NCBI GenBank assembly: GCA_028583605.1
Contig: CM053326.1
Coordinates: 49,660,159-49,724,158, forward strand
Length of the DNA: 64,000 nucleotides
DNA from: Dastarcus helophoroides
Lineage: Eukaryota > Arthropoda > Insecta > Coleoptera > Bothrideridae
Direction: 5' to 3'
Every line of letters starts with the position of its first letter. Position 1 is the first letter of the stretch. The notes under the pieces were generated by a model. It was not told where the DNA came from and did no database searches. It saw only the letters and a list, made by a program, of their open reading frames with translations. Of this stretch, positions 1-56,021 are shown in pieces. Both the position numbers and the translations under genes were made by a program.

Positions 1-2504
1 ATAGTTTTCATTTCATTTTTTTATAGAAACTTACTACTTTCTTACAGAAGTAATGTCCATTTACATTAAAAAAGAAAAATATATAGATATATACGTGGTG
101 TTGTGACATAGTAACGTAATTTTGTAAATGTGAGGAGGAAAAATTTCTTGGACTAAATTATTTTATGATAATTTTTATTTCGTTTTTTTTATAGGAAGCT
201 TGCTACTTCTTTACAGAAATAATGTAATTTTGATCCATTTACGTTATAAAAGAAAAATATATACATATATACGTGGTTATTGTGACATAGTAACGTAATT
301 TTGTAAATGTGAAGGATAAAAATCTCTTGGACTAAATTGTTTCGTGATAGTTTTTATTTCGTTTTTTTATAGAAAGCTTTCTACTTCCTATCAGATATAA
401 TGCACTTTTGCTCCATTTACATAAAAAACGAAAAGTATATACATATATACGTGATCAGTGGGACACAGTAGCGTAATTTTGTAAATATGAGAAATAGCAA
501 CTTCTTGGACTAAATTGTTTCAGGATAGTTTTTATTTCATTTTTTTATAGAAACTTACTACTTTCTTACAGAAGTAATGTCCATTTACATTAAAAAAGAA
601 AAATATATACATATATACGTGGTGTTGTGACATAGTAACGTAATTTTGTAAATGTGAGGAGGAAAAATTTCTTGGACTAAATTGTTTTATGATAATTTTT
701 ATTTCGTTTTTTTTTATAGGAAGCTTGCTACTTCTCTACAGAAATAATGTAATTTTGATCCATTTACATTATAAAAGAAAAATATATACATATATTACGT
801 GGTTATTGTGACATAGTAACGTAATTTTGTAAATGTGAATAAAAATCTCTTGGACTAAATTGTTTCGTGATAGTTTTTATTTCGTTTTTTTATAGAAAGC
901 TTACTATTTCCTTTCAGATATAATGTACTTTTGCTCCATTTACATAAAAATCGAAAAGTATATACATATATACGTGATCAGTGGGACATAGTAACGTAAT
1001 TTTGTAAATATGAGGAATAGCAACGTCTTGGACTAAATTGTTTCATGATAGCCTTTAGTTCATTTTTTTTATAGAAACTTATCACTTCCTTACAGAAGAA
1101 ATGTCCATTTACATTAAAAAAATATATATATACATATATACGTCGTGTTGTGACATAGTAACATAATTTTGTAAATGTGAGGAAGAAAAATTTCTTGGAC
1201 TAAATTGTTTTATGATAGTTTTTATTTCGTTTTTTTATAGAAAGCTTACTACTTCCTTTCAGATATAATGTATTTTTGCTCCATTTACATAAAAAACGAA
1301 AAGTATATACATATATACGTCATCAGTGGGACACAGTAACGTAATTCTGTAAATGTGAGGATAGCAACCTCTTGGACTAAATTGTTTCATGGTAGTTTTT
1401 ATTTCTTTTTTTTTTATAGAAAATTTACTACTTCCTTACAGAAGTAATGTCCATTTACATTAAAAAAGAAAAATATATACATATATACGCGGTGTTGTGA
1501 CATAGTAACGTAATTTTGTAAATGTGGGGAAGAAAAATTTCTTGGACTAAATTGTTTTATGATAGTTTTTATTTCGTTTTTTTATAGGAAGCTTGCTACT
1601 TCTCTACAGGAATAATGTAATTTTGTTCCATTTACATTATAAAAGAAAAATATATACATATATTCGTGGTTTTTGTGATGTAGTAACGTAATTTTGTAAA
1701 TGTGAGGAATAAACATCTCTTGGACTAAATTGTTTCGTGATAGTTTCTATTTCTTTTTTTTATAGAAAGCTTACTACTTCCTTTCAGATGTAATGTACTT
1801 TTGCTCCATTTACATAAAAAACGAAAAGTATATACATATATACGTCATCAGAGGGACATAGTAACGTAATTTTATAAATATGAGGAATAGCAACCTCTTG
1901 GACTAAATTGTTTGGTGGTAGTTTTTATTTGATTTTTTTATGGAAAACTTACTACTTCCTTACAGAAGTAATGTTCATTCGCATTAGAAAAGAAAAATAT
2001 ATACATATATACGTGGTTGTTGTGACAGTAACGTAATTTTGTAAATGTGAGAAATAAAAATCTCTTGGACTAAATTGTTTCGTGATAGTTTCTATTTCTT
2101 TTTTTTATAGAAAGCTTACTACTTCCTTTCAGATGTAATGTACTTTTGCTCCATTTACATAAAAAACGAAAAGTATATACATATATACGTGAGTAGTGGG
2201 ACATACTAACGCAATTTTGTTAATATGAGGAATAGAATTTCTTGGACTAAATTGTTTTATGGTAGTTTTTATTTCATTTTTTTATAGAAAACTTACTACT
2301 TCCTTACAGAAGTAATGTCAATTCACATTAGAAAAGAAAAATATATACATATATACATGGTTGTTGTGACATAGTAACGTAATTTTGTAAATGTAAGGAA
2401 TAAAAATCTCTTGGACTAAATTGTTTCGGGATAGTTTTTATTTCGTTTTTTTTTATAGAATGCTTACTACTTCGTTTCAGAAATAATGTAATTTTGCTCC
2501 ATTC
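1..2504. repeat. Satellite array, ~175-bp monomers in A-B-C higher-order pattern
   Basis: About fifteen head-to-tail monomers of 168-178 bp share a T-rich start, a CTTACTACTTC segment, TATATACATATATACGT, a GTAACGTAATTTTGTAAAT core and CTTGGACTAAATTGTTT. Three monomer types are seen: A has TGTCCATTTACATT and GGTGTTGTGAC, B has AATTTTGATCC and GGTTATTGTGAC, C has TTTTGCTCC and GATCAGTGGGAC. Their order is roughly A B C A B C A C A B C A' C A' then a partial B-like copy. The array is cut by the window start, so its true length is unknown. No ORF and no ribozyme-like core was seen. Confidence 0.93.
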
Positions 2505-3009
2505 ATTATCAACTCTAGACTTCTTCTTGAATCATTAAACCTATAGCAGAAACAAGATCTTCTTTTGCTTCAAACATATTTTCGTCAAACATTTACTTTT
2601 CTTATCTAGGACATTCCGTCGATGTCTGACTTTTTATTTCTTCTGGTTCGTTCTAGTTCCATAAATGTGTTACTTCGATGAAGTGGAATGAACATAAGAA
2701 AAAATGTTTTTTCAACGCCTAAACTAATAATAATAGTAATAAAGGCAACAGTTTTTTGTCTAATCAGCCGAGATAGGTTCCCTACTTAAAGACATCAGTT
2801 GTTTATCCTTTGGAATATTTGTCTGTATTAATAAAATTGAAGCGTCTAAGTGTCTGTCTGTCTGTCGACTAATCTTTTGTCCGGGCTAATCTCTGAAATT
2901 GCCAAATCGATTTTAGTGAAACCTTTACTAAAATGTAGGGTAATTCGAGGGGTACCTTTTAGACTAGTACTATTCCATTAAAACTAAATCTTTCACTCTT
3001 TCAACTCTT
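2505..3009. other. Unique AT-rich spacer
   Basis: No gene seen. It holds a short GTCTGTCTGTCTGTC run near 2850, followed by a phrase about a 'gaaattgccaaatcgatttt' type that resembles dispersed repeats in other arthropods (impression only). Confidence 0.5.
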
Positions 3010-3265
3010 CTATAATGCACAGACCAATAGGTTTGAAGATTGAAACCGGTATTTGGTTTCCAAACTTCGAATCTAGTAAATGTTCAAACCTATTGGTCTG
3101 TACATTATAGAATCCTTGTCTTCTGGGAACTCTCCTAGAGAGCAACCGCTTCGCTAGGTGGCAGTGTTTCAACTGTTGGTAGTTCAGCTACCTATGATTC
3201 GCCACTATACACGCCGCCTGGAGGGCTGCATGAATTTGTAGTCTAGGTTGCATTCTTCTTGCATC
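3010..3265 (+). repeat. Partial R390 repeat with inverted junction
   Basis: The left part is a hairpin: a copy of the CAGACCAATAGGTTTGAA segment is followed by its inverse. The right part continues with the usual R390 text (CCTTGTCTTCTGGGAAC, GCAACCGCTTCGCTAGG, GGAGGGCTGCATGAATTTG). The hammerhead core is missing except for a GAAACCGGTATTTGG remnant near 3043. Confidence 0.75.
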
Positions 3266-3389
3266 TTTCAACTCTGTTAACAATTTTATTTGAGGTTATA
3301 ACACACTTCAAAGTTTTGGAAACTTAGTCATCCTGTATGCCTTTTTTGCAATGAATACACGGCTTTTTATAACAAAATCTTTTTAATTA

Positions 3390-6513: not shown

Positions 6514-7065
6514 GCGATCCGAGGCCATCTCGTAAACTGTGTTTGTCACCAATTTATTACGAATGAATGCTTTTTACTTGAGACGTTATCAACACAGAGT
6601 TCCATAAATATTACGATTGATTGTAGAAAAAAGTGTTTATATCAAAATAGACAATTTTTTTGTTTTTCGATCAAAACAAGAGAAAATTTGGACTAAATTT
6701 TATATTCACACATAAGTAAAAATGATTTAATTTGGTCTATTGACCGTTCGTTGTGGTCTTCTTGTAGTAATTGTTACGGAACCCTAATGTGAGAGCTTGG
6801 CTCGCTCCTTGCTGACCTTATGTACTGATTTCGATAACTCCCCGTTTTATTGTCCAAAGTTGATTATTTTAGTCTTTTGTACTAAAGAGTTTGATTTTCT
6901 ATTTGTTTTTTATTATCTTCGTTATTGATATAATTATGTTTCATTAAAGACTTTCTAGTTATTATTATTTTTGCCTAATTCATTTGGTTTTTTTTCACAC
7001 CAAAACGCCCCATTGGGGAATTGAAAGCGATAAACACATCCAATGCTTATTTATTAAAATTGTGC
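6514..7065. other. AT-rich spacer
   Basis: No gene or repeat identified. Confidence 0.4.
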
Positions 7066-7170
7066 TTCAAAAATTGAAATACGGAACTTGTCCCCTGAAA
7101 AGTCAGGGGACAAGTTCTGTATTTCAATTTTTGAAAATAACCAAGGACTAGTCCATTTCATCAAAAAAAT
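7066..7170. mobile_element. FB element reduced to a near-perfect hairpin
   Basis: The arms TTCAAAAATTGAAATAC.GAACTTGTCCCCTGA and their inverse meet with a few unpaired bases. The centre, including both hammerheads, is deleted. The outer AACCAAGGACTAGTCC is present on the right only. Confidence 0.85.
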
Positions 7171-9647: not shown

Positions 9648-10060
9648 ACTTCGTTTGGTGGAACGGACTGGTCCTTGGTTATCTTCAAAAATTGAAATAC
9701 AGAGCGAGTTTCTCTGTGAAGACGATATCTTCAGAGAGATATCTCATTGATAGCCAAGCTCTCATCTTCAGAGAAGAAGATGATAGCTTAGCTATCGTAA
9801 CGCGTTAGAGCAAAGCTCTCATCTTCAGAGAGATAACTGTCTGATAGCCAAGCTCTCATCTTCAGAGAAGAAGATGATAGCTTGGCTATCGTAACGCGTT
9901 AGAGCAAAGCTCTCATCTTTAGAGAGATAACTCTCTGATAGCCAAGCTCTCATCTTCAGAGAAGAAGATGATAGCTTGGCTGTCGAAACGCGTTAGAGCA
10001 ACTTTTGTTGCGTTTTTTAATCTTTCTTGGTTTCAGTTTTCAGGTTTCTGTATTTCAATT
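9648..10060 (+). mobile_element. FB element with triplicated central module
   Basis: After the left end (TTTGGTGGAACGGACTGGTCC) the core module runs three times at a period of about 105 bp: GATAGCCAAGCTCTCATC, TTCAGAGAAGAAGATGATAG, CTTGGCTATCGTAACGCGTT. Two copies have GTAAC where the hammerhead needs GAAAC; the last (9985-9989) has GAAAC but AAGAAGA in place of CUGAAGA. None looks catalytically complete. The right end is damaged after TTTCAGTTTTCAGG. Confidence 0.8.
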
Positions 10061-10356
10061 TTCGGAACTTCGTGTGTTAAAACTCGAATCTATTTTACAA
10101 CTTTCCAGTTTTTCCCAAAACCAGAACTTCTGTTTGAAATTCCAGGTTAAAACTTGGAATTTTTACACTCGAAATTCGAGAAACTATACATTTTACGTTT
10201 AATCCTGACTTTACCAGTAAAAACCGATTTAAATTAAAATTTCATTTATTAAAAAAATTCTCAGAATTTCGAATTTGAAATACTGATTTAAAATTTGAAG
10301 TAAAATTTCAACTTTAAATTCGAAATCTTCACCTTAAGTTGATTTAAAACACGAAA
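10061..10356. other. AAATTTCGA-type AT-rich sequence
   Basis: Low-complexity sequence with repeated AAAATTTC/GAAATTTT words; no gene. Confidence 0.5.
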
Positions 10357-10612
10357 ATTGAAATACAGAACTTGTCCCCTGAAACCAAGAAAGATTAAAA
10401 AACACAACAAACTTTGCTCTAACGCGTTTCGACAGCCAAGCTATCATCTTCAGAGATATACTGTATCTCTCTGAGTATCTCTCTGAAGATGACAGCTTGG
10501 CTGTCGAAACGCATTAGAGCAACGTTTGTTGTGTTTTTTAATCTTTCTTGGTTTTAAGGGGCAAGTTCTGTATTTCAATTTTTGAAGATAACCAAGGACC
10601 AGTCCGTTCCAC
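10357..10612. mobile_element. FB element, near-complete palindrome
   Basis: The left arm starts AAAATTGAAATACAGAACTTG and runs CCAAGAAAGATTAAAAAACA; the right arm is its inverse and ends CAGTCCGTTCCACCAAA. Hammerhead cores occur on both strands. Confidence 0.9.
10416..10457 (-). ncRNA. Hammerhead-type ribozyme motif (FB family, left arm)
   Basis: On the minus strand CTGAAGA is followed by stem II GATAGC/GCTGTC with loop TTG (one wobble), GAAA, palindromic stem III ACGCGT, cleavage base T, and AGAG able to pair with CTCT. This is one of the best-preserved FB cores; the opposite arm (10483-10516, + strand) has GACAGC/GCTGTC and GAAACGCATT. Confidence 0.75.
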
Positions 10613-11035
10613 CAAAAAAATTAAAACACGAAGTTTTTTTGTAACATTGTGGTTTTGAACTCGAAATGTTAGGTCCAGAAATTGAAATGTTTGAACAGAA
10701 ATTTCGAGAAAATTTTAACATAATTTTCAAACTTTGACTCGAAAATCGATGATTGAAGCAAAATATTTTTGTAGAAATTCTTCAATTTTTTTTGACTAAA
10801 CTTTCACGTTTCGTTAAAAATAAACAATCAGTTCAAATTTTTAGAATTTATTTTTAAATTCTAACATATATTTTCAGCCATAAATCCGAAATAATTTTAT
10901 GGCTTCAATTTTATAATAATAAAATTTGACAAAAACCTAAAAAAGTTGAAAAATATGTTTGGAAATTTGCAAATTTTAATATCTTTTTGTACATTTTAAT
11001 TTTTAAAGTTAAAAAAAATTGACTAGCATTTTTAT
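10613..11035. other. AAATTTCGA-type AT-rich sequence
   Basis: Low-complexity; no gene. Confidence 0.5.
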
Positions 11036-11162
11036 GTTGGCCATGGCTATAGTTTTCTCTATGGACCAATAGGTGGTGGTAATCTGAGAGTCGCACGCTT
11101 GACGTTCGTTGATTCTTTAGTACCTCCTTGTCGGAACATTTGTTAGCATTCGAGTTGGATAT

Positions 11163-11205
11163 ACCAAACTGACGAGATCTAACAAGATCGAAACAGGTCT
11201 TTGGT
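11163..11205 (+). ncRNA. Hammerhead-type motif (R390), stem III mismatched
   Basis: ACCAAA, CTGACGA (11169-11175), stem II GATCT/AGATC, GAAA, stem III ACAGGT (centre no longer self-complementary), cleavage base C11199, TTTGGT. Core residues are intact. Confidence 0.65.
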
Positions 11206-12083
11206 TTCCATACTTCGAATCTATGTTCAAACCTATTCGTCTATGCATTAGAATCCTTGTCTTCTGGGAACTTTCCTAGAGAGCAACCGCTTCGCTAGAT
11301 GGCAGTGTTTCAACTGTTGATAGTTCAGCTACCTATGATTCGCCGCTATTAAAAAAAAAGACAATATTTAAAAAAAATATTCACAGAGTTATTTCGACAT
11401 TTAGTTCTTTTAAAAAAAAAGTCGAAATTTTACTATTAAAATGTATAAATAAAAATATAATTTTCCTGAAATGTCGAATTTGCACTAAAAATTCACAAAT
11501 CGGTCCCAGAATTCCAACTTTAATTGGGATACTTCAGAAAAAAAAATGTTTTCTTAAATCAATGTTCATTGGGCGTCATTTTAACAACTATTATTATTAT
11601 CTATGGACCAATAGGTGGCAATAGTTTGAGAGTCACACGCTTGACGTTCGTTAATTCTTTAGAACCTACTGTCGGAGCATTTGTTAGCATTCGAGTTGGA
11701 TATACCAAACTGACAAGATATAACAATATCAAAACCGGTCTTTGCTTCCCAAACTTCGAATCTAATAAATATTCAAACCTATTGATCTGTGCATTAGAAT
11801 CCTTGTCTTCTGGGAACTTTCCTAGAGAGTAACCGCTTCGCTACGTGGCAGTGTTTCAACTGTTGGTAGTTCAGCTACCTATGATTCGCCACTATACACG
11901 CCTGGAGGGCTGCATGAATTTACAGTCTAGGTTGTATTCTACTTGCATACGACATTGTTGGCGCTGACCACAGTTTTCTCTATGGATTAATAGGTAGCGG
12001 TAGTTCGAGAGTCACACGCTTGACGTTAGTTGATTCTTTAGTACTTCGTTGTCGGAACATTTGTTAGCATTCGAGTTGGATAT

Positions 12084-12126
12084 ACCAAACTGACGAGATC
12101 TAACAAGATCGAAACCGGTATTTGGT
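12084..12126 (+). ncRNA. Hammerhead-type ribozyme, complete (R390)
   Basis: Stem I ACCAAA (12084-12089) pairs perfectly with TTTGGT (12121-12126). The core CTGACGA (12090-12096) fits CUGANGA. Stem II GATCT/AGATC (12097-12101, 12106-12110) has loop AACA. GAAA (12111-12114) overlaps stem III ACCGGT (12114-12119), a self-complementary hexamer with no loop. The cleavage triplet is GUA, ending at A12120. Every consensus position is satisfied. Because stem III has no loop, two RNAs may have to pair; that is known for minimal hammerheads and inferred here. Confidence 0.85.
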
Positions 12127-12735
12127 TTCCAAACTTCGAATCTAATAAATGTTCAAACCTATTGGTCTATGCATCAGAATCCTTATCTTCTGGGAACTTT
12201 TTCCTAGAGAGCAACCGCTTCGCTAGGTGGCAGGGTTGCAAACTGTTAGCAGTTCTGTCATGTATGATTCACACACCTGGAGGGTTGCATGAATTTGTAG
12301 TCTAGGTTGCATTCTACTTGCATTTCTAGTTCAAATTAAAAAAAATAATAATTATAAAGATTCTAAGATCATATATGACATTTTCAAAGGAAGCAACAAA
12401 TATTTAAAAAAATATTCGAAATTTCTAGGCTTTTTTGTCCATTTCCTTATTCACAACTGTGAAACTTTTAAGTTTGAAGAATTTAATAGATGCATTCTAC
12501 TTGCATATGACATTGTTGGCGATGACCACAGTTTTCCCTATGGACCAATAGGTGGCGGTAATCTGAGAGTAACACGCTTGACGTTCGTTGATTCTTTAGT
12601 ATTTACTTGTCGGAACATTTGTTAGCATTCAAGTTGGATATACCAAACTGACGAGATTTAACAATATCGAAAGCGGTCTTTGGTTTCCAAACTTCGAATC
12701 AAATAAATGTTCAAAGCTATTGGTCTGAGCATTAG

Positions 12736-13202
12736 CATTTTTAAATAAACAAGACCTATTGCGATTGCAAACTTCCTCTTTCCTTTTTGTTATTATTTCG
12801 TTCATCAACTTTATTCTAACAATTTTATGAATTACGCTTAAAATTTGGCACCTTAAAACTAAAGCTCGCGTGAAATTAATTTATTCCTGGAATTTTTATT
12901 TATACACGATATTTTGGCTCGATATTTATATAAATCATTGTTCTGCCTTTACTAAATGATAGATCCTAACTAGTTCAGAGAAAAAGAAAATTGTTACAAT
13001 GAGCGAAATTAAGCCAATAATATTTGATTAGTGATGTAACATCTACTTCCAGTTATTCAAGTATCCATCGATTTAAAACGAAATTTGCCTTAAGTTGAAA
13101 ATTATTGAAAAATGAAGAAAAAAATACAAATAAATTAGCAACTTTAATTTGTTTAAATGTTAAATAACATTAATAAATTTAATAAATAAAATCCCCTATT
13201 TT
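12736..13202. other. AT-rich spacer
   Basis: Nothing recognised. Confidence 0.4.
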
Positions 13203-17734: not shown

Positions 17735-17940
17735 TGATAACGAAGGCTTCCACGTCCAGAGTCAGTACAGGATATACTTCTTCCGGGATTAGACCGTGTT
17801 AAAGAACTACTAAAAGTGTTCGACGTTTCACCCACCATCGTAGGGGGCTTCTTCAGGAACAAAGAAAAGAAACAATAAATAAAAAGGGAAATATAAGGAA
17901 ATACGCAAAAATGAAAGAATGAAAAGGCCAATTTCAAAAT
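17735..17940 (-). mobile_element. Penelope-like element end
   Basis: On the minus strand: GGCCTTTTCATTC, TTTATTGTTTCTTTTCTTTG, the hammerhead, TTTTAGTAGTTC, GAAGTATATCCTGTACTGAC, ending GGAAGCCTTCGTTATC. Identical blocks flank the GIY-YIG copy at 39.8-40.8 kb, which identifies the family. Confidence 0.8.
17815..17861 (-). ncRNA. Hammerhead-type motif (Penelope end)
   Basis: CTGAAGA, stem II GCCCCC.../GGTGGGT with a TACGAT loop, GAAAC, stem III ACGT, cleavage base C. The last stem II pair is weakened by a C-to-T change (GGGT rather than GGGC). Confidence 0.65.
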
Positions 17941-17942: not shown

Positions 17943-18175
17943 CCAGAAGAGTTTCGCCTCTGGTATGGTGGACATACTGAGTTACCGTGCTCTTCTATCT
18001 AAACTTTCTTATCCTTTGTACCAATTTTCAATTCAGAAGAGTTTCGCCTCTGGTATGGTGGACATACTGAGTTACCGTGCTCTTCTATCTAAACTGTCTT
18101 ATCCTTTGTACCAATTTTCTATTCAGAAGAGTTTCGGCTCTGGTATGGTGGACATACTGAATTACCTGACGTTTC
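17943..18175 (+). repeat. 90-bp tandem repeat, about 2.5 copies (Penelope 3' region)
   Basis: The unit starts CAGAAGAGTTTCGCCTCTGG and recurs at 17943, 18033 and 18123. The period is a multiple of three, so a 30-residue repeat stays open; I treat this as non-coding. The same repeats lie at 39.99-40.25 kb. Confidence 0.9.
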
Positions 18176-18184: not shown

Positions 18185-18360
18185 TTGAAATTGGCCTTTT
18201 CATTCTTTCCTTTTGGCGTATTTCCTTATATTTCCCTTTATATTTATTGTTTCTTTTCTTTGTTTCTGAAGAAGCCCCCTACGATGGTGGGCGAAACGTC
18301 GAACACTTTTAGTAGTTCTTTGATACGGTCCAACCCCGTCAGAAGTATATCCTGTACCCT
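18185..18360 (+). mobile_element. Penelope-like element end, inverted partner
   Basis: The inverse of 17735-17940, so the two ends with the 90-bp repeats between them form a palindrome of about 600 bp. Confidence 0.8.
18261..18305 (+). ncRNA. Hammerhead-type ribozyme, complete (Penelope end)
   Basis: Stem I TGTTT (18261-18265) pairs with GAACA (18301-18305, one wobble). The core CTGAAGA (18266-18272) is followed by stem II GCCC.../GGGC (with one mismatch above), GAAA (18293-18296), stem III ACGT (18296-18299) and cleavage base C18300 (GUC). Hammerheads with a two-base-pair stem III are known from Penelope-like elements. Confidence 0.8.
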
Positions 18361-20344: not shown

Positions 20345-20905
20345 GTGCACCCTCCATCGCCTCCTCCGACACCGCCCCGTCTGCAGAGGCCACCGCCACC
20401 TCCCCTGGCACCGACGACGATTACGAAACAGCCACAGGCCTCCTTCAGCAAAGATCCTCCGGCAGCAGCGTGCATCGCTCGAACGTCTATCGTGTGTCCC
20501 GAGTGCGGTAGATGTAGGTGCGCGTCATGCCAACAGCCGAAGCCGCTGCCGCAGCGGTGGGTGTGCCGCAACGGTTGTCTTTTATCAGCGGACAGCATCA
20601 TCGACTACGCGTCCTGTTTGTGCTGCGTCAAAGCGATTTTCTATCACTGTTCGGAATCAGATGGTGGTGAGAGTTGTGCGGACGAACCTTGCGGATGTGG
20701 GTCTCACAAAAGGTACGCCAGATGGGGTTGTTTGGGTGCCTTGTCGTGCGTATTACCCTGTTTATGGCTGTATTGGCCGTTGCGCGGTTGTAAGAGAGCA
20801 GTCGAGATGTGTTATGCGAGGCATTCGAGGGCTGGATGTCGATGTCGTCCACCTTTACCCACCCCCGAGAAAAGGCTGTTGGACTCTGTCAGCCCGGACT
20901 TTTGA
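20345..20905 (+). CDS. spry: Sprouty, coding exon 2 (residues 88-273, Cys-rich domain, stop)
   Basis: This exon carries a proline-rich linker (88-112), ITKQP (113-117) shared with fly Spry, and the Sprouty cysteine-rich domain at about 138-254: CPECGRCRC, LPQRWVC, SADSIIDYASCLCCVKAIFY, CADEPCGC, LPCLWLYWPLRGC, AGCRCR. This domain directs membrane targeting and partner binding in the family. The end TPEKRLLDS matches the fly C-terminus. The first codon after the acceptor is GTG (Val88), in phase with exon 1, so GTG is not a start. Two usually conserved cysteines are replaced: CLC is CLL (Leu167), and the LCEKC-type pair reads AVEMC (Val240). TGA stop at 20903-20905. Confidence 0.95.
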   Translation: MHPPSPPPTPPRLQRPPPPPLAPTTITKQPQASFSKDPPAAACIARTSIVCPECGRCRCASCQQPKPLPQRWVCRNGCLLSADSIIDYASCLCCVKAIFYHCSESDGGESCADEPCGCGSHKRYARWGCLGALSCVLPCLWLYWPLRGCKRAVEMCYARHSRAGCRCRPPLPTPEKRLLDSVSPDF

Positions 20906-23119: not shown

Positions 23120-24650
23120 CTGAAATACCTATCAAGCCCACTATATTTCTATGGGACCAATGGCAATAAACCTAATTCGGTCCTAATCGGTAACTGGTCT
23201 ATACTAATGCACAGACCAATATATTTGAACATTTATTAGATTCGACGTTTGGCAACCATTCCGAATCTAATAAATGTTCAAATCTATTGGTCTGTGCATT
23301 AGAATTCTTGTCTTCTGGGAAATTTTTCCTAGAGAGCAACCGCTTCGCTAGGTGGCAGTGTTTCAACTATTGGTAGTTCAGCTACCTATGATTCGCCACT
23401 ATACACGCCGCCGCGAGGGCTGCATGAATTTGTAGTCTAGGTTGCATTCTACTTGCATGCGACATTGTTGGCGGTGGCCTTAGTATCTCTATGGGCGAAA
23501 GGTGACGGTAGTACTAAGAAATCACACGCTTGACGTCCGTGAATTCTTTAGTACTTACTTGTCGGAACATTTGTTAGCATTCGAGTTGGATATACCAAAC
23601 TGACGAGATCTAAAAAGATCAAAACCGGATTTGGTTTCCAAACTTCAAATCTAATAACTGTTCAGATCTATTGGTCCGTGCATTAGAATCCTTGTCTTCT
23701 GGGAAATTTTTTCTAGAGAGCAACCGCTTCGCTAGGTGGCAGTGTTTCAGCTGTTGGCAGTGTTTCAGCTGTTGGCAGTGTTTCAGCTGTTGGCAGTTCA
23801 GCTACCTACGATTCGCCATTATACACGCCGCCTCGAGGGCTGCATGAATTTGTAGTCTAGGTTGCATTCTACTTGCATACGATATTGTTGGCGGTGGCCT
23901 TAGTATCTATATGGGCTAAAGTGACGGAAGTACTAAGAAATCACACGCTTGACGTCCGTGAATTCTTTAGTACTAACTTGTCGGAACATTTGTTAGCATT
24001 CGAGTTGGATATACCAAACTGACGAGATCTAAAAAGATCGAAACCGGTATTTGGTTTCCAAACTTCGAAACTAATAAATGTTCAAACCTATTGGTCTGTG
24101 CATTAGAATCCTTGTCTTCTGGGAAATTTTTCCTAGAGAGCAACCGCTTCGCTAGGTGGCAGTGTTTCAGCTGCTGGCAGTTCAGCTACCTACGATTCGC
24201 CATTATACACGCCGCGTGGAGGGCTGCATGAATTTTTTTATTCTAGGTTGCATTCTACTTGCATACGACATTGTTGGCGGTGGCCTTAGTATCTCTATGG
24301 ACCAAAGGTGACGGTAGTACTAAGAAATCACACACTTGACGTCCGTGCATTCCTTAGTACTTACTTATCGGAACATTTGTTACCATACGAGTTGGATATA
24401 CCAAACTGACGAATTCTAACAAGATCGAAACCGAATTTGGTTTCCAAACTTCGTATCTAATAAATGTTCAAACCTATTGGTCTGTGCATTAGAATCCTTG
24501 TCTTCTGGGAAATTTTTCTTAGAGAGCAACCGCTTCGCTAGGTGGCAGTGTTTCAACTGTTGGTAGTTCAACTACCTATGATTCACTATACACGCCGCCT
24601 CGGGGACTCCATGAATTTGTAGTCTAGGTTGCATTCTGCTTGCATAAAAC
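23120..24650 (+). repeat. R390 array, inverted junction then three monomers
   Basis: It starts with an inverted half-copy (23213-23300, CAGACCAATA...AACATTTATTAGATTCG and its inverse), then monomers with cores near 23600, 24019 and 24406, about 385-420 bp apart. A GGCAGTGTTTCAGCTGTT unit is triplicated at about 23738-23790. No coding potential. Confidence 0.92.
24013..24055 (+). ncRNA. Hammerhead-type ribozyme, complete (R390)
   Basis: Stem I ACCAAA (24013-24018)/TTTGGT (24050-24055) is perfect. CTGACGA (24019-24025), stem II GATCT/AGATC with loop AAAA, GAAA (24040-24043), stem III ACCGGT (24043-24048), cleavage base A24049. The neighbours are damaged: the copy at 23600 has AAAA for GAAA, and the one at 24406 has a changed stem II and stem III. 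Confidence 0.85.
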
Positions 24651-26879
24651 TGGTCTATAGTCAAGTTCACATTTCCTCTTTGTTATGCTATGAAATTCAG
24701 AAGAACGTTTCACGGGTTTCAGTTTTGGATAGTATAACTTTCATAATTAGTTAAGCAACCGATCTATTTGCCCCTGTAATAAAAATAAGAGGTATTTCCT
24801 ATAAAACCATACATTTCGGATATTTTATTTTATTTGTTTCCTATCAAACATTTAAATATTAATATAGACATATGTGACTTATTTTTAAAAATTCTAACAA
24901 GTTTCAATTTTATAAATGAAACATGTCATTATTATAGCCTTTATGCGGACGAAAAATTCACAATAAAATGTTGAGTCTTGTTAAACTGAAAACTCTAGCA
25001 AGATATAAATAAAAATGTGAAAAACATTTTATAAATCATTAAATTTCACATCATGGTGCATATTTGAGAAAAAACTCAATCAAAAATAGTCTTTTGTGTC
25101 TTCTACAACGCTCCCCACTTTTTTATTAATAAAGCAGACCTTTACGCCAGAAAAACGCATTTTTTTTTCGTTTGGTTGGAAAACTGTGTAGATTATTAAT
25201 TTATTTTTGTAAATAACTAAGTGTAACTGTTTAAAACGATATTCCGTGCTTATTGCGTTCATCTCCTGATCAAGAGCGAGGTATAAAATGTTGACAACTG
25301 ATTTTCAATTTCCTTGATTGGGGGAGTTGGCAAAATCGCGGCTCTCCAGTATTATCTAGTCCTCTGCGCTAAAATGTCGTCTTCATATTCTCGACAGACC
25401 TCTTAATTCATCGTACAATCAGGTGTTGTGTCGACTTAAATAATTTATTTTGACAAAGAGCTTTTCAAAAGGACTCCGATAAGAGGAGTTGTGTAAGGGT
25501 TGGTCGAATTGAAAGTGTACGTACAAAGGGGGGAAACTTATTTATTATTTATTAAATTGATACCTCCATGTTTCTTATTAAAACGAACTACGATTGTTAT
25601 GGATCTGAAAAAAAGACTGATACAATTAGTTCTTTTGAAACAGCTTATTTCGAATTAAGTGTATTTGTAACGTCTGATTGTACTTAACTAGTCCAGAATT
25701 TTGAAGACGATTCATGAAGTTGTAATGAGTGAGCGTATCAGAATGTATACCGAAGTAGATTTTAACGTAATAACTAAGACAATCTGTGATCAGATGTATA
25801 CGGTTTATTTATTTTAATTAATACTTTTCTGTCATTGTCATGTACGAATTTTATAAATTATCAAAGAAATTAGATTTAACTAGAAAGTGTATTGTGATGC
25901 TTGGAAATTTATAAATGGGTGTATTTTTTCTCTGTCTATTTATTTGGTAAAAATTTGAAAATATAAAGGACCACAGGTTGTTTTAGTAAAACTGAAATAT
26001 TATTTTTTTTCGATAATGTTTCAGTATTATTAGTTTATAACTCAACTCCAAAAAACTATTCAGATTTCTTTTACTGTTAATACTGTTAATATAAATTTTT
26101 ATTGAAAAGCACCCTATTGTAAAAATTAAAATGTTTAGTGATTTAATTTTACATCTTTATGATAATTTGAAGCAGACTGTGATAAAAAGTTTATATGTGC
26201 TTTATGTACACAACCAAGGGATCATACATTGAGTTTAGGTATTCAAAACAAATACGCTTCCAGGTGAAACTTACCATATAAAAGTAGCAGGTACTAGAAT
26301 TTTTTCTGGACTATTTACTAAACTTTTAACATATTTAACAATCTAATAACTTGTACTATGTAATACTATGTAGTATGTAATACACTAGTCCTACAACTCT
26401 TAATGTATAGTTCCCTAATTGGTTGTGTTTTTTTACCACTAAATAATTCAATAAATTTCTTGTGTCTGTATTACAATTTACTTCGGTAGTTTATGTTTGT
26501 ATATGGAGTTGTACTCTCACAAATTGTGCCAAAAGGCGCCAAAAGCTCTATAGCTATTGTATACTTGTACATATAAAAAATCTGTAATATTATATTATCT
26601 AATGTTAATAACATCAACGTTATATATTATATGTTGTTTCACTTTCCAACACAACACGCGATACCCATCAAAAAGATCATATTTTCTACCAAGGAAGTAT
26701 GAAATTATATTGTATTGACAAATATTAGTTCTCGCTAAGCCTTGTAATTCAATGCAAAATGGCAAAAAAACTTTCCCCTTGCTACTGACTGCGAGTTTTA
26801 TTGGTTTGGTTAACTAATAAAGTGTTACAGTCGATCAGAAGATTCCACCTAACTGCAGCGTTCCATGGTATAAGTTTGA
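24651..26879. other. Long unique AT-rich region
   Basis: No gene, repeat or RNA recognised. Short ORFs (60 codons) look random. Confidence 0.4.
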
Positions 26880-28020: not shown

Positions 28021-30240
28021 AAACTATGAAATTTCGCATTTTTTTCGCAACTCCTTTTTTGAAATTTCGATTTTTTTCTCGAAATTTGTCGTTATTTGGA
28101 AATGTCGATATTTTAAGTCTCTCTATTTTCAAAATTACGTCTTTATCTTTCTTCCTTGACATTCTTCATAAAGAGTATTCTCAAAATTTGACTATATTTT
28201 GTCAAAATTTTAAATTCAACGCGAAATATCCATTTTTATTTGTTAACATTTTCTACTTTCATAACTTCTTTTTCGAAATTTCGATTTTTTCCTCGAAATC
28301 TGTCGTTCTTTGGAAATTTTGATATTTTTTTAAGTCTCTCTATTTTCAAAATTACGGCTTTACCTCAACTTCTTCCTTGACATTCTTCATAAAGAGTATT
28401 CTCAAAATTTGACTATATTTACTCAAAATTTTAAATTCAAGGCGAAATATCCATTTTTATTTGTTAACATTTTCTACTTTCATAACTTCTTTTTCGAAAT
28501 TTCGATTTTTTCCTCGAAATTTGTCGTTCTTTGGAAATTTTGATATTTTTTTAAGTCTTTCTATTTTCAAAATTACGGCTTTACCTCAACTTCTTCCTTG
28601 ACATTCTTCATAAAGAGTATTCTCAAAATTTGACTATATTTACTCAAAATTTTCCATTTTTTTTTCTCAAAATTTTGCACTTTCATAACTTCTTATTTGA
28701 AATTTCGATTTTTTTATTCGAAATTTGTCGTTATTTTGAAGTTTCGATAATTTTTTAAATCCGTCTATTTTAGAAATTACGTCTTTACCTCAACCTTTCC
28801 TTGATATTCTTCATAAAGAGTGTTCTCAAAACTGGACTATATTTACTCAAAATTTTAAATTCAACGCGAAATATCCATTTTTTTTTCTCAAAATTTTGTA
28901 CTCTCATAACTTCTTTTTCGAAATTTCGATTTTTTTCTCGAAATTTGTCGTTATTTGAAAATTTCGATATTTTTTTAAGTCTCTCTCTGTTTTCAAAATT
29001 ACGGCTTTACCTCAACTTCTTCCTTGACATTCTTTATAAACAGTATTCTCAAAATTTGACTATATTTACTCAAAATTTTAAATTCAACGCGAAAAATCCT
29101 TTTTTTCCCCCAAATTTTGCACTTTCATAACTTTTTATTTGAAATTTCGATTTTTTTATTCAAAATTTGTCCTTATTTGGAAATTTCGATAATTTTTTAA
29201 ATCCGTCTATTTTCGAAATTACGGCTTTACCTACCTTTCCTTTGACATTCTTCATAAAGAGTGTTCTCAAAATTAGACTATATTTATTCAAAATTTTAAA
29301 TTCAACACGAAATATCCATTTTTTTTCTCAAAATTTTGCACTTTCACAACTTCTTTTTTGAAATTTCGATTTTTTTCTCGAAATTTGCCGTTTATTTGAA
29401 AATTTCGATATTTTTTTAAGTCTCTATTTTCAAAATTATGTCTTTACCTCAACTTCTTCCTTGACATTCTTCATAAAGAGTATTCTCAAAATTTAACTAT
29501 AATTTCTCAAAATTTTAAATTTAACGCGAAATATCCATTTTTTTTTCTCAAAATTTTTGTACTTTCATAACTTCTTTTTCGAAATTTCTATTTTTTTCTT
29601 GAAATTTGTCATTATTTGGAAATTTCGATAATTTTTTAAATCCGTCTATTTTCGACATTACGTCTTTACCGCAACCTTTCCTTGACATTCTTTATAAAGA
29701 GTTTTCTCAAAATTTGACTATATTTTCTCAAAATTTTAAATACAACGCGAAATATCCATTTTTTTTCTCAAAATTTTGTACTTTCATAACTTCTTTTTCG
29801 AAATTTCGATTTTTTTCTCGAAATTTGTCGTTATTTGGAAATTTCGATCATTTTTTAAATCGGTCTATTTTTGAAATTACGGCTTTACCTCAACCTTTCC
29901 TTGATATTCTTCATAAATGCATTCGCTTGTCTAATAGCCTTCCGCAAAACATAGATATATTTCTTGACAATTTAAGTTCTCCGCGTATAAAAAGACAGTT
30001 ACTTAGAGTTACGTAGTATTGTTATTCAATAAATTAATATTAGTTCTGTACACCAAATTATTGGATTCCTTTTATTTTATTTTTATTTCTGTTATTTTTA
30101 TTTATTAGGATTCTTTATTTGTTATACATTTTCTTTTTTTATGTAATACCATTTAAATTATTAGGTTCTTATTTTTATCATGCTATATTTTTAAGTATGT
30201 AGGTATTTTTCCACTATAGACTTAAGTCTGTTGGAACGAG

Positions 30241-30275
<35 letters not shown>

Positions 30276-32815
30276 AGAGTGTTCTCAAAACTGGACTATA
30301 TTTACTCAAAATTTTAAATTCAACGCGAAATATCCATTTTTTTCCCCAAATTTTGTACTCTCATAACTTCTTTTTCGAAATTTCGATTTTTTTCTCGAAA
30401 TTTGTCGCTATTTGGAAATTTCGATATTTTTGTAAGTCTCTCTCTGTTTTCAAAATTACGGCTTTACCTCAACTTCTTCCTTGACATTCTTTATAAAGAG
30501 TATTCTCAAAATTTGACTATATTTACTCAAAATTTTAAATTCAACGCGAAATATCCATTTTTTTTTCTCAAAATTTTGCACTTTCGTAACTTCTTATTTG
30601 AAACTTCGACTTTTTTATTCGAAATTTGTCCTTATTTGGAAATTTCGATAATTTTTTAAATCCGTCTATTTTCGAAATTACGTCTTTACCTCAACCTTTC
30701 CTTGACATTCTTTATAAAGAGTTTTCTCAAAATTTGACTATATTTTCTCAAAATTTTAAATTCAACGCGAAATATCCATTTTTTTTTCTCAAAATTTTGC
30801 ACTTTCATAACTTCTTTTTTGAAATTTCGATTTTTTTCTCGAAATTTGTCGTTATTTGGAAATTTCGATATTTTTTTAAATCCGTCTATTTTTGAAATTA
30901 CGGCTTTACCTCAACCTTTCCTTTGACATTTTTCGTAAAGAGTGTTCCCAAAATTAGACTATATTTAGTCAAAATTTTAAATTCAACTCGAAATATCGAT
31001 TTTTTTTTCTCAAAATTTTCTACTTTCATAACTTCTTTTTCGAAATTTAGATTTTTTTCTCGAAATTTGTCGTCATTTGGAAATTTTTTTAAGTTTCTCT
31101 CTGTTTTCAAAATTACGGCTTTACCTCAACTTCTTCCTTGACATTCTTCATAAAGAGTATTCTCAAAATTTGACTATATTTATTCAAAATTTTAAATTCA
31201 ACGCGAAATATCCATTTTTTTTTCTCAAAATTTTGTACTTTCATAACTTCTTTTTTGAAATTTCGATTTTTTTCTCTAAATTTGTCGTTATTTGGAAAGT
31301 TCGATATTTTTTTAAGTCTCTCTAATTTCAAAATTACGTCTTTACCTCAACTTCTTCCTTGACATTCTTCATAAAGAGTATTCTCAAAATTTGACTATAA
31401 TTTCTCAAAATTTTAAATTTAACATGAAATATCCATTTTTTTCTCAAAATTTTGCACTTTCATAACTTCTTTGAAATTTCGATTTTTTTTCTCGAAATTT
31501 GTTGTTATTTGGAAATTTCGATATTTTTTTAAGTCTCTCTCTGTTTTCAAAATTACGGCTTTACCTCAACTTCTTCCTTGAGATTCTTTATAAAGAGTAT
31601 TCTCAAAATTTGACTATAATTTCTCAAAATTTGAAATTCAACGCGAAATATCCATTTTTTTTCTCAAAATTTTGCACTTTCACAACTTCTTTTTTGAAAT
31701 TTCGATTTTTTTCTCGAAATTTGTCGTTATTTGAAAATTTCGATATTTTTTTAAGTCTCTCTAGTTTCAAAATTATGTCTTTACCTCAACTTCTTCCTTG
31801 ACATTCTTCATAAAGAGTATTCTCAAAATTTGACTATAATTTCTCAAAATTTTAAATTTAACGTGAAATATCCATTTTTTTTCTCAAAATTTTGCACTTT
31901 CATAACTTCTTCTTTGAAATTTCAATTTTTTTTCTCGAAATTTGTCGTTATTTGAAAATTTCGATATTTTTTTAAGTCTCTCTATTTTCAAAATTATGTC
32001 TTTACCTCAACTTCTTTCTTGACATTCTTCATAAAGAGTATTCTCAAAATTTGACTATAATTTCTCAAAATTTTAAATGTAACGTGAAATATCCATTTTT
32101 TTTTCTCAAAATTTTGCACTTTCACAACTTCTTTTTTGAAATTTCGATTTTTTTCTCGAAATTTGTCGTTATTTGGAAATTTCGATATTTTTTTAAGTCT
32201 CTCTAATTTCAAAATTACGTCTTTACCTCAACTTCTTCCTTGACATTCTTCATAAAGAGTGTTCTCAAATGTTGACTATAATATCTCAAAATTTTAAATT
32301 CAACGCGAAATATCCATTTTTTTTCTCAAAATTTTGCACTTTCACTTCTTTTTTGAAATTTCGATTTTTTTCTCGAAATTTGTCGTTATTTGGAAATTTC
32401 GATATTTTTTTAAGTCTCTCTCTGTTTTCAAAATTACGGCTTTACCTCAACTTCTTCCTTGACATTCTTCATAAAGAGTATTCTCAAAATTTGACTATAA
32501 TTTCTCAAAATCTTAAATTCAACGCGAAATATCCATTTTTTTTTCTCAAAAATTTTGTACTTTCATAACTCCTTTTCCGAAATTTCGATTTTTTTCTCGA
32601 AATTTGTCGTTATTTGGAAATTTCGATAATTTTTTAAATCCGTCTATTTTCGAAATTACGGCTTTACCTCAACCTCTACCTTAACATTCTTTATAAAGAG
32701 TGTTCTCAAAATTAGACTATATTACTCAAAATTTTAAATTCAACGCCAAATATCCATTTTTTTTTTCTCAAAATTTTGTACTTTCGTCATCAAAATTTGT
32801 CTTTTTTCGGAATTT
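28021..32815. repeat. ~220-bp tandem array, about 20 copies
   Basis: The unit holds GAAATTTCGATTTTTTTCTC, TTGTCGTTATTTGGAAATTT, AAAATTACGGCTTTACCTC, CCTTGACATTCTTCATAAAG and CAACGCGAAATATCCATTT. The TAAAGAGTATTCTC marker recurs every 215-225 bp from 28168 to 32690. Many long open frames on both strands are a side effect of the repeat. Confidence 0.92.
29918..30276 (+). mobile_element. 5'-truncated LINE inserted in the tandem array
   Basis: About 30 codons of a C-terminal reverse-transcriptase ORF remain (29918-30016), including NSLP, a motif near the end of many LINE ORF2 proteins. Then comes a 3' UTR ending in (TAAA)n. The target ATAAA sits on both sides, and the array continues at 30277 in register. 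The family cannot be assigned from so little. Confidence 0.75.
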
Positions 32816-32821
32816 CGACTA

Positions 32822-33091
32822 CAGTCGACTCCCGCTAAAGTTGCGTCCGTTAAAGTTGCACGCTCATTAAAGTTGATACGACCGTTAAAGTTACGCGGAT
32901 ATTCCCCCACTCTAACACTTTCGAACAACGAACTGGACTTCAGCGTTTTAGCGCCACTTTTGAATAACCCACTCAACCCCACAAGGAGCAATCAAACGTA
33001 TATATCTTTCGACAATGGTAGGGATTACGGGGAGTAACAACTTTAACAGTCGATCCAGTACGGTAACTGCAACTTTAGCGGAAGTCTACTG
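32822..33091. mobile_element. pogo/Tigger-like MITE, 270 bp
   Basis: Terminal inverted repeats CAGTCGACTCCCGCTAAAGT and its inverse (with two changes) are flanked by TA on both sides (32820-32821, 33092-33093). GTTAAAGTTGC-type words repeat just inside. No transposase. Confidence 0.82.
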
Positions 33092-33240
33092 TATTTTGTT
33101 TTTCAAAATTTGCCCTTTTTTAATTTTGACTTTATTATGAAAAATCCACATTTGGATTTCTGTGTAAAAATTCTATTTCTTGTTCTGGAAATTTGTTATT
33201 GTTCTCGAAATGTCGATAATTAGCTTTATTTCTTTACTTT

Positions 33241-34620
33241 TCAGCTTTGTTCGCAATATTCGCCTTTTTTTTAAAACTGATTTTCTCTAAAAAAAATTCG
33301 AATTTTTCTCGGTTTCGAAATTTTTCTCGAAATTTCAATCGTTGTTTTTTTGAGATTTCTCCGTTTTTTCTTACCATTGGGATTTTTTTGAAAATGTCGA
33401 CCTTTTGGAATATGGATTTCCAGATATTTTGACCGGGTTCTTAAAATAAGACTCTTTAAAATCTTTTTCCTAAAGTTTGGAGTTCTATCTCAATTGATAT
33501 TCAACATTTCTAGAAATTTTGGCTTTTTCATCGAAATTTATCCAGTTCGAAATTTCGAATTGATTCTCAAAATTTAACTTTTTGAAAGAAAACTTCAGGA
33601 ATCTTTATTATTTGAAATGCTGCCATTTTTCTTAAAAATTTAAAATTTCGAATTTTTCTCGATCTCGAGGTTTTTCTCGAAATTTCAATCGTTGTTTTTT
33701 GAGATTTCTCCGTTTTTCTTACCCTTGGGATTTTTTAAAATGTCGACGTCTTTTCTTAAAGTTTGGATTTCTATCTCAATTGATATTCAACATTTCGAGA
33801 AATTTTGGCTTTTTTATCGAAATTTATCCAGTTCGAAATTTCGAATTGATTCTCAAAATTTAACTTTTTGAAAGAAAACTTCAGGAATCGTCATTATTTG
33901 AAATGCTGTCATTTTTCTTAAAAATTTAAAATTTCGATTTTTTCTCGATCTCGAAGTTTTTCTCGAAATTTCGATCGTTGTTTTTTGAGATTTCTCCGTT
34001 TTTTCTTAGCATTCGGATTTTTTGAAAATGTCGACCTTTTGGAATATGGATTTCCAGATATTTTGACCAGATTTTTAAAATAAGACTCTTTTTAAAATCT
34101 TTTTCTTAAAGTTTGGATTTCTATCTCAAATAATATTCAACATTTCTAGAAATTTTGGCTTTTTTATAGAAATTTATCCAATTCGAAATTTCGAATTGAT
34201 TCTCAAAATTTAACTCTTTGAAAGAAAATTTTAAAAATCGTCATTATTTGAAATGCTGTCATTTTTCTTAAAAATTTAAAATTTCGATTTTTACTCGATC
34301 AAAGTTTTTCTCGAAATTTCGATTGTTATTTCTTGAGATTTCTCCGTTTTTTCTTACCATTGGGATTTTTTTCAAAATGTCGACCTTTTGAAATATGGAT
34401 TTCCAGATATTTTGACCAGATTCTTAAAAAAAGACTCTTTTTAAAATCTTTTTCTTAAAGTTTGGATTTCTATCTCAAATGATATTCAACATTTCTAGAA
34501 ATTTTGGCTTTTTTATCGAAATTTATCCAGTTCGAAATTTCGAATTGATTCTCAAAATTTAACTTTTTGAAAGAAAACTTCAAAAATCGTCTTTATTTGA
34601 AATGCTGTCATTTTTCTTTA
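33241..34620. repeat. ~350-bp tandem array, four copies
   Basis: Marker GAGATTTCTCCGTTTTT occurs near 33350, 33700, 33986 and 34334. The second copy lacks about 64 bp (GGAATATGGATTTCCAGAT and neighbours). Confidence 0.88.
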
Positions 34621-39832: not shown

Positions 39833-40270
39833 CAGGATATACTTCTTCCGGGATTGGACCGTGTCAAAGAACTACTAAAAGTGTTCGACGTTTCGCCCAC
39901 CATCGTAGGGGGCTTCTTTAGGAACAAAGAAAAGAAACAATAAATGAAAAGAGGAATATGAGGGAATATGCAAAAAGGAAAGAATGAAAAGGCCAATTTC
40001 AAAACATCAAAGCACGGTAACTCAGTATGTTCACCATACCAGAGGCGAAACTCTTCTGAATTGAAAATTGACACAAAGGACAAGAAAGTGTAGACAGAAG
40101 AGCACGGTAACTCAATATGTCCACCAAACCAGAGGAGAAACTCTTCTGAATTGAAAATTGGTACAAAGGACAAGAAAGTTTAGACAGAAGAGCACGGTAA
40201 CTCAGTATGTCCACCAACCAGAGGCGAACTTTTCTGAGAGGAAAGAAAGAAAGGGAAACTTTATATACCA
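39833..40270 (-). mobile_element. Penelope-like element 3' region
   Basis: Reading the minus strand after the ORF: three 90-bp repeats (CAGAAGAGTTT...), GGCCTTTTCATTC, the hammerhead region (39881-39927) and GAAGTATATCCTGTGCAC. The ribozyme core reads CTAAAGA, with G5 changed to A, a change expected to kill activity. Confidence 0.82.
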
Positions 40271-46995: not shown

Positions 46996-47140
46996 CGGAC
47001 TGATCTTTGGTTATCTTCAAAAATTGAAATACAAATCTTCTCCCCTGAAACCAAGAAAGATTAAAAACCACAAGAGCAACCTTTGTTGTGTTTTTTAATC
47101 TTTCTTGGTTTCAGGGGGCAAGAATTGTATTTCAATTTTT
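46996..47140. mobile_element. FB element, centre deleted
   Basis: GGACTGATCTTTGGTTATC, AAAACCACAAGAGCAACC and the inverse arm; no ribozyme core left. Confidence 0.85.
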
Positions 47141-55418: not shown

Positions 55419-55444
55419 TATATTTTTTTTGATAATTACCATCT

Positions 55445-55690
55445 TTCAAGAAGAATGCAACCTAGTCTACAAATTCATGCAGCCCTCCAGGCGTATATAG
55501 TGAATCATAGGTAGCTGAACTACCAACAGTTGAAACACTGCCACCTAGCAAAGCGGTTGCTCTCTAGGAGAGTTCCCAGAAGACAAGAATTCTATAATGC
55601 AGAGACCAATAGGTTTGAACATTTATTTTGGTTTCCAAACTTCGAATCTAATAAATGTTCAAACCTATTGGTCTGTGCATTATAGTAGCA
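55445..55690 (-). repeat. Partial R390 with inverted junction
   Basis: Minus-oriented R390 (CTACAAATTCATGCAGCCC, GGTAGCTGAACTACC) then a hairpin at 55590-55690 (CAGACCAATAGG inverted pair). No ribozyme core. Confidence 0.78.
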
Positions 55691-56021
55691 TCTTTCAATC
55701 GATTATTATTTTAACAGTTCATAATAAAATCTTAGATGAGTCATTACAGCGTAGTGTGTTGAAAGGATGCGATGTGAATAGACCGGAAGTCTACTATCCA
55801 GGCTTAACCTCCCGCCGGAAATTCATATATCATGTCGAGATATAAAAATAAAGCATAATGCACTTAAAACAGCAAATTTTACACTGCAATTAGAGGTCTG
55901 TGTGATTAAATTCCCCAATTAATATCATTTAGGCGTGTTCCTGTAGAATCAATTTAATTATGGAAAATTTTGCCAATTTTTTTGCATGTTGACCAGATTG
56001 TGTTACAATTTTGGTGGATTT
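55691..56021. other. Unique spacer
   Basis: The 82-codon ORF that ends here begins in the R390 hairpin and is not supported. Confidence 0.35.

Follow-up and report, generated by a model that had tools for sequence, protein, structure and literature searches.

A tandem repeat in this beetle genome bears on the question of what moves the retrozymes of animals. One review notes that retrozyme repeats carry no conserved motif that would reveal their autonomous partner, and puts forward Penelope elements in that role, as both have type I hammerhead ribozymes and the two co-occur (PMC7761336); the partnership has so far been proposed on the grounds of shared ribozymes and co-occurrence. The repeat, here R390, was recognized in an earlier note on the window, the 64-kb stretch analyzed here, as a retrozyme-like array with a complete hammerhead in each monomer. 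We ask what R390 is and how it came to be inserted. Our reading, to which we assign a probability of about 0.74, is that R390 is a tandem, non-coding beetle repeat of ~380 bp with a consensus hammerhead predicted to self-cleave, and that it was likely inserted by Penelope-like machinery acting in trans.

R390 consists of head-to-tail units of ~374–385 bp with 42% GC, as delimited in the 64-kb window by TRF and a 378-column nhmmer unit model, which is consistent with the ~385-bp monomers originally described. A long open reading frame was sought in two doubled monomers and the longest open frame is 87 aa; the unit is non-coding, as had been claimed. The hammerhead comprises stem I (ACCAAA/TTTGGT), CTGACGA, stem II (GATCT-AACA-AGATC), GAAA with ACCGGT, and the base A, after which the cleavage point lies. 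It is of type I, with stem I open, and its stem III is a single A-U pair closing a palindromic CCGG. In the predicted fold, pairing extends past stem I and an ATAT/TT internal loop to form a long, imperfect hairpin. The R390 consensus forms a complete type I hammerhead that is predicted to self-cleave.

A strict type I descriptor matched three times in the window, with CTGANGA at 11169, 12090 and 24019, compared with one match over 200 Markov-simulated windows. Two of the matches, at 12084–12126 and 24013–24055 (both on the plus strand), are intact hammerheads; these are the two copies that had been singled out as satisfying every consensus position, and the scissile bonds predicted for them, after 12120 and 24049, agree with the sequence as noted earlier. 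The third, at 11163–11205 (plus strand), has an intact core and the stem III element ACAGGT, with cleavage predicted after 11199. A scan of the window with the Rfam hammerhead models, which the earlier note had proposed, gave a divided result. At the gathering thresholds there were no hammerhead matches (clan CL00010), so that R390 misses the family threshold. Below gathering, five Hammerhead_HH9 matches were obtained (E from 1.2e-5 to 0.15), the best with 36.8 bits where 52 are required; they include 12072–12143 (E = 6.9e-5), 11151–11222 (E = 0.0039) and 24001–24072 (E = 1.2e-5), at the three descriptor matches. Rfam therefore backs the R390 hammerhead only weakly. In the MFE fold of a lone R390 hammerhead the core CTG pairs with CCGG, which is not the active fold; this modeled misfolding would fit the idea that R390 acts as a dimer, and is not proof of it. 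Folding of the unit circle gave z = −2.96 and −2.65, which indicates good structure and nothing more.

The unit model matched the window at 20 places, which we grouped into five insertions, A to E. Insertion A (11035–12732, plus strand; unit matches [8..321], [28..378], [2..378] and [3..230]) has its 3′ end at an inner site near unit position 228. The tandem array reported at 11036–12735 is thus present as four tandem monomers, within a single insertion that is interrupted by two non-R390 stretches, at about 11344–11597 and 12324–12490. An 11-bp target duplication, TAGCATTTTTA, borders insertion A at 11024–11034 and 12733–12743. The insert at 12324–12490 (~167 bp) carries its own 16-bp target duplication, TGCATTCTACTTGCAT. 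Its flank recurs about 200 kb away, at the sampled locus L009, so part of the array A region has been duplicated. Insertion B (23204–24647, plus strand) pairs ~3.5 sense monomers, which end at unit 378, head-to-head with an antisense arm covering unit positions 229 to 173, and lies between copies of the 12-bp duplication AACTGGTCTATA at 23192–23203 and 24648–24659. Insertion C (3009–3264, plus strand) joins an antisense arm from the inner site to a part-monomer ending at unit 378, with the target duplication TCTTTCAACTCT at 2997–3008 and 3264–3275. Insertion D (55450–55688, minus strand) has the anatomy of C in reverse orientation, with an inner arm from unit 227 to 171 and the 10-bp duplication CATCTTTCAA at 55440–55449 and 55689–55698. 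Insertion E (57580–59067, plus strand) is a rearranged array holding a Penelope-type insert and an antisense piece (58640–58765) with its start at unit 233; a search at the borders of E gave no target duplication. B to E were likewise delimited with the unit model.

Target duplications of 10–12 bp therefore surround four of the five window insertions (A–D), each around the whole array and not around a single unit, and in a random control only one of 599 pairs of places reached at least 10 bp. Because the duplications enclose whole arrays, each tandem array was most likely inserted in one event. All three head-to-head insertions in the window (B, C and D) have one arm from the inner site and one arm with the tail. 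A poly(A) or simple-repeat 3′ end was sought by eye at the window copies and none was seen.

The search of the genome for R390 monomers that the earlier note had suggested was made with a 401-base query in the 539-Mb assembly (50 contigs); it returned 2,924 candidate places, and 40 of these were scored. After one locus (L048) was dropped for its overlap with another (L017), the sample comprised 39 loci and 199.5 kb, made up of the places best matching one query and thus not random. Together with the window, these loci contain 149 R390 unit matches in 100 arms. The 3′ ends of the arms, where copying presumably started, lie at unit 226–239 in 32 arms, at 374–378 in 48 and elsewhere in 20. Two starting points, unit ~228 and unit 378, thus account for 80 of the 100 arms. 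The choice of 378 as the end of the unit followed from the observed ends of arrays, and other inserts have split some arrays into more than one arm. The inner site lies 57–58 nt past the scissile bond, and the tail between the two sites measures 150 nt. The 5′ ends of the 100 arms are scattered, with no peak at the scissile bond, and the copies are therefore no proof of copying from cleaved RNA. A footprint of hammerhead cleavage had been considered, as the inner arm of D ends at unit 171/172 and that of B at 173, yet it was rejected for R390 given the lack of a peak there among the 100 arms. Copying of exactly one turn of a rolling circle was also dropped: several arms with an apparent 5′ end at unit 1–3 extend 11–28 nt into the preceding unit, below the detection length.

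The 39 loci hold 49 R390 insertions, 25 of them head-to-head (antisense on the left, sense on the right) and 24 not. By our tally, 17 of the 25 combine an inner with a tail arm, three have two tail arms, none has two inner arms and five have other ends; eight of 25 thus fall outside the rule of one arm of each kind. Since either arm can be the longer one and the junctions differ, the pairs look to have been formed anew at each insertion and not inherited as a composite. Duplications of at least 10 bp were found at 11 of the 49 insertions, whose borders are approximate so that some may have been missed; one (at L034) was discarded as the repeat’s own sequence, leaving ten of 10–13 bp. Eight of the ten are 12–13 bp long, compared with random pairs, of which five of 400 reached at least 10 bp and none of 400 at least 12 bp. 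Units within an insertion are more alike than units from different insertions in 20 of 27 same-strand and 17 of 22 inverted insertions, by only about 1% (L009, which partly duplicates array A, was excluded from this count and retained in those of arms, insertions and copy integrity). This hints weakly that one RNA molecule may have been the template of each insertion. The longest arms reach about 1.4 kb, and the copies are short and dispersed. The earlier note mentions neither the Penelope link nor the single copies dispersed in the genome, the arms placed head-to-head or the duplicated target sites. A search of viral contigs, among which records of this genome are possibly absent, gave no matches.

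The claim that every R390 monomer has a complete hammerhead does not hold. In 11036–12735 two of the four monomers pass the descriptor (11169 and 12090); the one at 11710 has a CTGACAA core and an altered GAAA, and the one at 12648 has a broken stem II and an altered stem III. Across the window, three of the ten uninterrupted copies pass, and an eleventh is split by the Penelope-type insertion at 58069. Of 95 copies spanning the motif in the window and the 39 loci, 64 have the core in frame and 56 have the core and both stems; the perfect hammerhead is the commonest sequence (20/95) and the consensus is perfect. The stem III element ACCGGT is present in 56 of the 95. The base at the cleavage site, which in a hammerhead may chemically be A, C or U, is A in 46, C in 28, T in one and G in none of the 75 readable copies.

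We looked for selection on the hammerhead in the decay of core versus unit and in pair-keeping double changes, and found no sign of it: the core has 0.0554 changes per base versus 0.0539 in the remainder of the unit, and pair-keeping double changes are few (stem I, 2 of 3; stem II, 1 of 3). Decay of the core at the rate of the unit is what would be expected of dead copies. Judged by their sequences, most of the sampled copies are dead; a working source is suggested by the consensus alone. Three window copies have CTGACAA and a changed stem II in common, and may reflect the spread of a lineage whose hammerhead was dead; in two of them the pairing of stem II is incomplete, and in the third (11598–11948) pairing is restored and GAAA is changed. 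R390 copies are ~10% apart, and the family may therefore no longer be active.

Animal non-LTR retrozymes are characterized by a type I hammerhead, tandem units of 150–450 bp, GC below 50%, absence of coding sequence and of LTRs, PBS and PPT, and target duplications longer than 4 bp (PMC7229834). R390 has a type I hammerhead, units of 374–385 bp, a GC fraction of 0.42, no coding sequence and duplications of 10–13 bp. The DNA features tested thus place R390 among the animal non-LTR retrozymes, and its retrozyme-like identity as first proposed is supported at that level, by the hammerhead, tandem units, GC, non-coding sequence and target duplications. The animal retrozymes described by Cervera & de la Pena (2020; PMC7229834) resemble it in their type I hammerhead, non-coding tandem units of ~170–400 nt, low GC and duplications longer than 4 bp, and circular RNAs have been demonstrated for those of coral, mussel and axolotl (PMC7229834). 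The axolotl HHR_Amex1 has, like R390, a stem III of one pair with a palindromic tetraloop, and it cleaves far better as a dimer (PMC7229834). R390 differs from the mussel, coral and axolotl retrozymes in being borne by a beetle and in its two preferred starts and head-to-head arms, which we did not find described for retrozymes in the literature consulted. Plant LTR retrozymes are likewise non-autonomous hammerhead elements (PMC4918200), but they have type III hammerheads, LTRs, PBS/PPT and 4-bp duplications (PMC7229834), whereas R390 has a type I hammerhead and duplications of 10–13 bp. The cave-cricket satellite pDo500 is, like R390, a tandem hammerhead repeat of an insect for which a double-hammerhead form has been proposed; it is a ~500-bp satellite whose double form has intermolecular stems I and II, and not stem III (PMC2837043).

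The anatomy of many of the insertions matches that published for Penelope elements. Rotifer Penelope elements typically have head-to-head pLTRs, an optional 31-bp tail on one of them and duplications of 8–10 bp (PMC3846280). The purified lizard Penelope PAc cuts and extends both target strands in vitro, and its cDNA starts at two internal sites downstream of the hammerhead, the tail being the stretch between them (PMC11167929). In the same work, Frangieh et al. report no RNA reads starting or ending at the PAc cleavage site, and cleavage was not needed in vitro (PMC11167929). R390 shares with Penelope the head-to-head arms, the tail on one arm, the target duplications, the two internal starts downstream of a type I hammerhead and the partial tandems (PMC3846280, PMC11167929). 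It differs in the length of its duplications (10–13 bp versus 8–10 bp in Penelope; PMC3846280) and of its tail (150 nt versus 30–40), and in having a canonical and not a minimal hammerhead and no RT/GIY-YIG ORF; comparison with Penelope pieces detected no related sequence. R390 thus has the head-to-head arrangement with a one-arm tail that marks insertion by Penelope-type machinery and, being non-coding, lacks the ORF with RT and GIY-YIG of a Penelope element. On its sequence we regard R390 as behaving like a passenger of Penelope and as not itself a Penelope element.

P1 and P2, two other families of the window, are by our reading of Penelope type. The P1 element at 58069–58375 (plus strand) lies inside an R390 hammerhead and has head-to-head arms, a minimal hammerhead (CTGAAGA..GAAACGTC) and the tail end GTGAAAGCCTTCG. 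One arm runs to the inner end and one to the tail end, between copies of the 11-bp duplication GACGAGATCTA at 58058–58068 and 58376–58386; by our count the inner start is about 60 nt past the scissile bond. A P1 arm with the minimal hammerhead at 17738–17884 (minus strand) corresponds to 155–306 of the 58069 element at 87% identity, with no target duplication found. Another arm, at 18238–18354 (plus strand), was identified by its match to the same element; here a frame, MVGETSNTF.., opens within stem II of the hammerhead, like the frame of PAc (PMC11167929). The minimal P1 hammerhead reads CTGAAGA..GCGAAACGTC, and the end TGAAAGCCTTCG is present at the corresponding place in lizard PAc. Genome-wide, the arm at 18238 gave 836 candidate places, of which 40 were scored. 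Of four P1 copies tested for duplications, the one at 58069 had them and the three others did not. Tandem repeats of 90 bp adjoin P1 arms at 17944–18166 and 40011–40237.

P2 has a minimal hammerhead with a palindromic stem III (CTGAAGA..GAAACGCGTT). A P2 composite assembled by eye has an open frame of 42 residues that begins in stem II and continues through the tail; in the four window copies tried, the frame is open to the end of the match in one, has a stop in another and lacks a detectable start in two. The element at 10354–10616 (plus strand) has head-to-head arms, the palindromic stem III, one arm with the inner end and the other tailed, and the 12-bp target duplication TTAAAACACGAA. Inner and tail ends are also combined at 9654–10062 (12-bp duplication TCGGAACTTCGT) and at 7065–7165 (11-bp duplication AAAATTGTGCT); at 46996–47140 the sense arm starts exactly at the predicted scissile bond (47073). 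Duplications of 11–12 bp were found at four of 19 P2 copies tested. By our tally, an inner arm (ending at 104–116) is paired with a tailed arm (ending at 121–142) in 12 of the 14 head-to-head P2 copies of the window, with the copies at 13203 and 19394 sharing flanks and thus representing one event; the other two have both arms tailed.

Thirteen of 34 P2 arms, from 17 distinct genome junctions, end exactly at the first base past the predicted scissile bond; the junction set covered 18 places and was gathered with a pattern that permits short gaps only, and the four-letter end is open to chance matches. Among 31 P2 anchors in the window and the loci, just two ends lie at or adjoin the scissile point (extension of 4 and 5). 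P2 cDNA would apparently have run off cleaved RNA at such ends, a possible genomic footprint of ribozyme cleavage. The window sites of P2 arms ending at the predicted scissile bond are 13296, 19482 and 47073.

Enzymes of the Penelope kind are encoded in the genome. The GIY-YIG family gave 1,070 candidate places, of which 150 were scored, with 91 matches; by our reading of its frames, the top-scoring match (L049) resembles a cellular gene. Two Penelope-like copies (L053, 2059–3309, and L054, 1957–3204, both on the minus strand) each have RVT_1 and GIY-YIG in one open frame and are 98.3% identical over 1,384 bp; Penelope enzymes were therefore probably active here fairly recently. An intact RT/EN gene linked to P1 or P2 was sought at four loci (L050 and L052–L054) and none was found. 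Comparison of R390 with the P1 element and with the RT/EN copies detected no sequence in common.

From the unit, the hammerhead, the duplications around arrays, the two start positions and the head-to-head insertions, all of them read directly from the DNA, we infer the following route. The hammerhead would cut transcripts of R390 arrays to size, probably in dimeric form given a stem III of no more than an A-U pair closing the palindromic CCGG, and the units would be ligated into circles or remain multimers. A Penelope-like RT/GIY-YIG enzyme would cut both target strands, and reverse transcription would start inside the R390 RNA, at site 228 on one strand and at 378 on the other. The polymerase would then cross the ligated or uncut hammerhead junction for one or more turns, yielding tandem units. 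The joining of two cDNAs at their scattered 5′ ends would give a head-to-head insertion with the duplication of a staggered cut. Since many arms start at 228 or 378 and run through the bond 170/171, the template of these arms must have been unbroken there, either as a circle or as an uncut multimer; this agrees with the circle model and is not proof of it.

Several other explanations have to be weighed. LINE twin priming also yields 5′ inversions between target duplications, and R390 might on that account be a retrozyme moved by a LINE, with inverted arms of the ordinary twin-priming kind; we also read LINE-like RT frames beside one P1 copy (L052). In twin priming, however, the inverted part begins at scattered places, whereas 32 of 100 R390 arms start within 14 nt, and no poly(A) or simple repeat was seen by eye at the 3′ ends of the window copies. 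Initiation at internal sites and extension on both target strands, moreover, are described for Penelope in the PAc study, and as not shown for R2 or LINE-1 (PMC11167929). We hold the LINE explanation to be improbable. Still less credible is a classical satellite with a hammerhead that merely trims transcripts, spread by unequal crossing-over and DNA circles. R390 arrays are indeed tandem, pDo500 is an example of a hammerhead satellite (PMC2837043), and units of the same array are slightly more alike than those of different arrays (20/27 arrays). Crossing-over, however, does not produce the part-units and head-to-head pairs present among the copies, several of which are bordered by target duplications; the copies, moreover, are short, with arms of at most about 1.4 kb, and dispersed.

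That R390 is a reduced Penelope element, a pLTR minus its ORF, and not an independent retrozyme, deserves more thought, although we consider it doubtful. A review proposes a derivation of retrozymes from Penelope elements by reduction (PMC11722881), R390 and Penelope have the hammerhead and the two-start head-to-head anatomy in common, and the inner start lies at a similar distance past the scissile bond in R390 (57–58 nt) and in P1 at 58069 (about 60 nt). But R390 has no sequence match to the Penelope pieces compared, its stem II has no start codon, and its stem I is long and canonical with an internal loop, whereas the P1 and P2 hammerheads are minimal. Finally, we give very little credence to the view that the hammerhead is without a role, having arisen by chance or persisting as a fossil. 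Such a motif would sit well with the lack of Rfam matches at gathering level and with conservation no higher than in the remainder of the unit. It sits badly with a perfect hammerhead as the consensus of the sampled copies, with A, C or T at the cleavage site in 75 of 75 readable copies, and with three matches in the window against one in 200 simulated windows.

We thus prefer a retrozyme inserted in trans by Penelope-like machinery, and we lean, with less assurance, toward a wider proposal: animal retrozymes would be passengers of Penelope; the two R390 start sites would be used on the two strands of one cut target; retrozyme and Penelope insertions would be made by one two-ended reaction, with circular or multimeric RNA giving rise to arrays; and the P2 ends at the scissile bond would make junctions a record of cleavage in vivo. 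The ends of R390 insertions would supply a mark of the autonomous partner, which can be sought in the published retrozymes of mussel, coral and axolotl. With three hammerhead families of one insertion anatomy in 64 kb, this beetle is a good system for the study of ribozyme-bearing retroelements. In the literature surveyed (supplementary files and the 2014 and 2017 papers on Penelope hammerheads being outside its scope) neither retrozyme insertions with head-to-head arms and two starts nor a beetle retrozyme were found to be described.

The window also has features of other kinds. Rfam microRNA matches were inspected, fall on palindromic repeat arms and were not taken as microRNAs. A 178/345-bp tandem array at 1–2503 extends to the left end of the window, and a large satellite of ~221 bp, rich in TTTCTCGAAATTTCGA-like sequence, lies within 28049–34618, adjoined by a 286/349-bp array. 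A coding exon of Sprouty, which points to a beetle host, is located at 20345–20905 (PF05210, E = 9.8e-37); its identity is 78% to the protein of Zophobas morio, a darkling beetle, and 79% to that of Leptinotarsa decemlineata, a leaf beetle.
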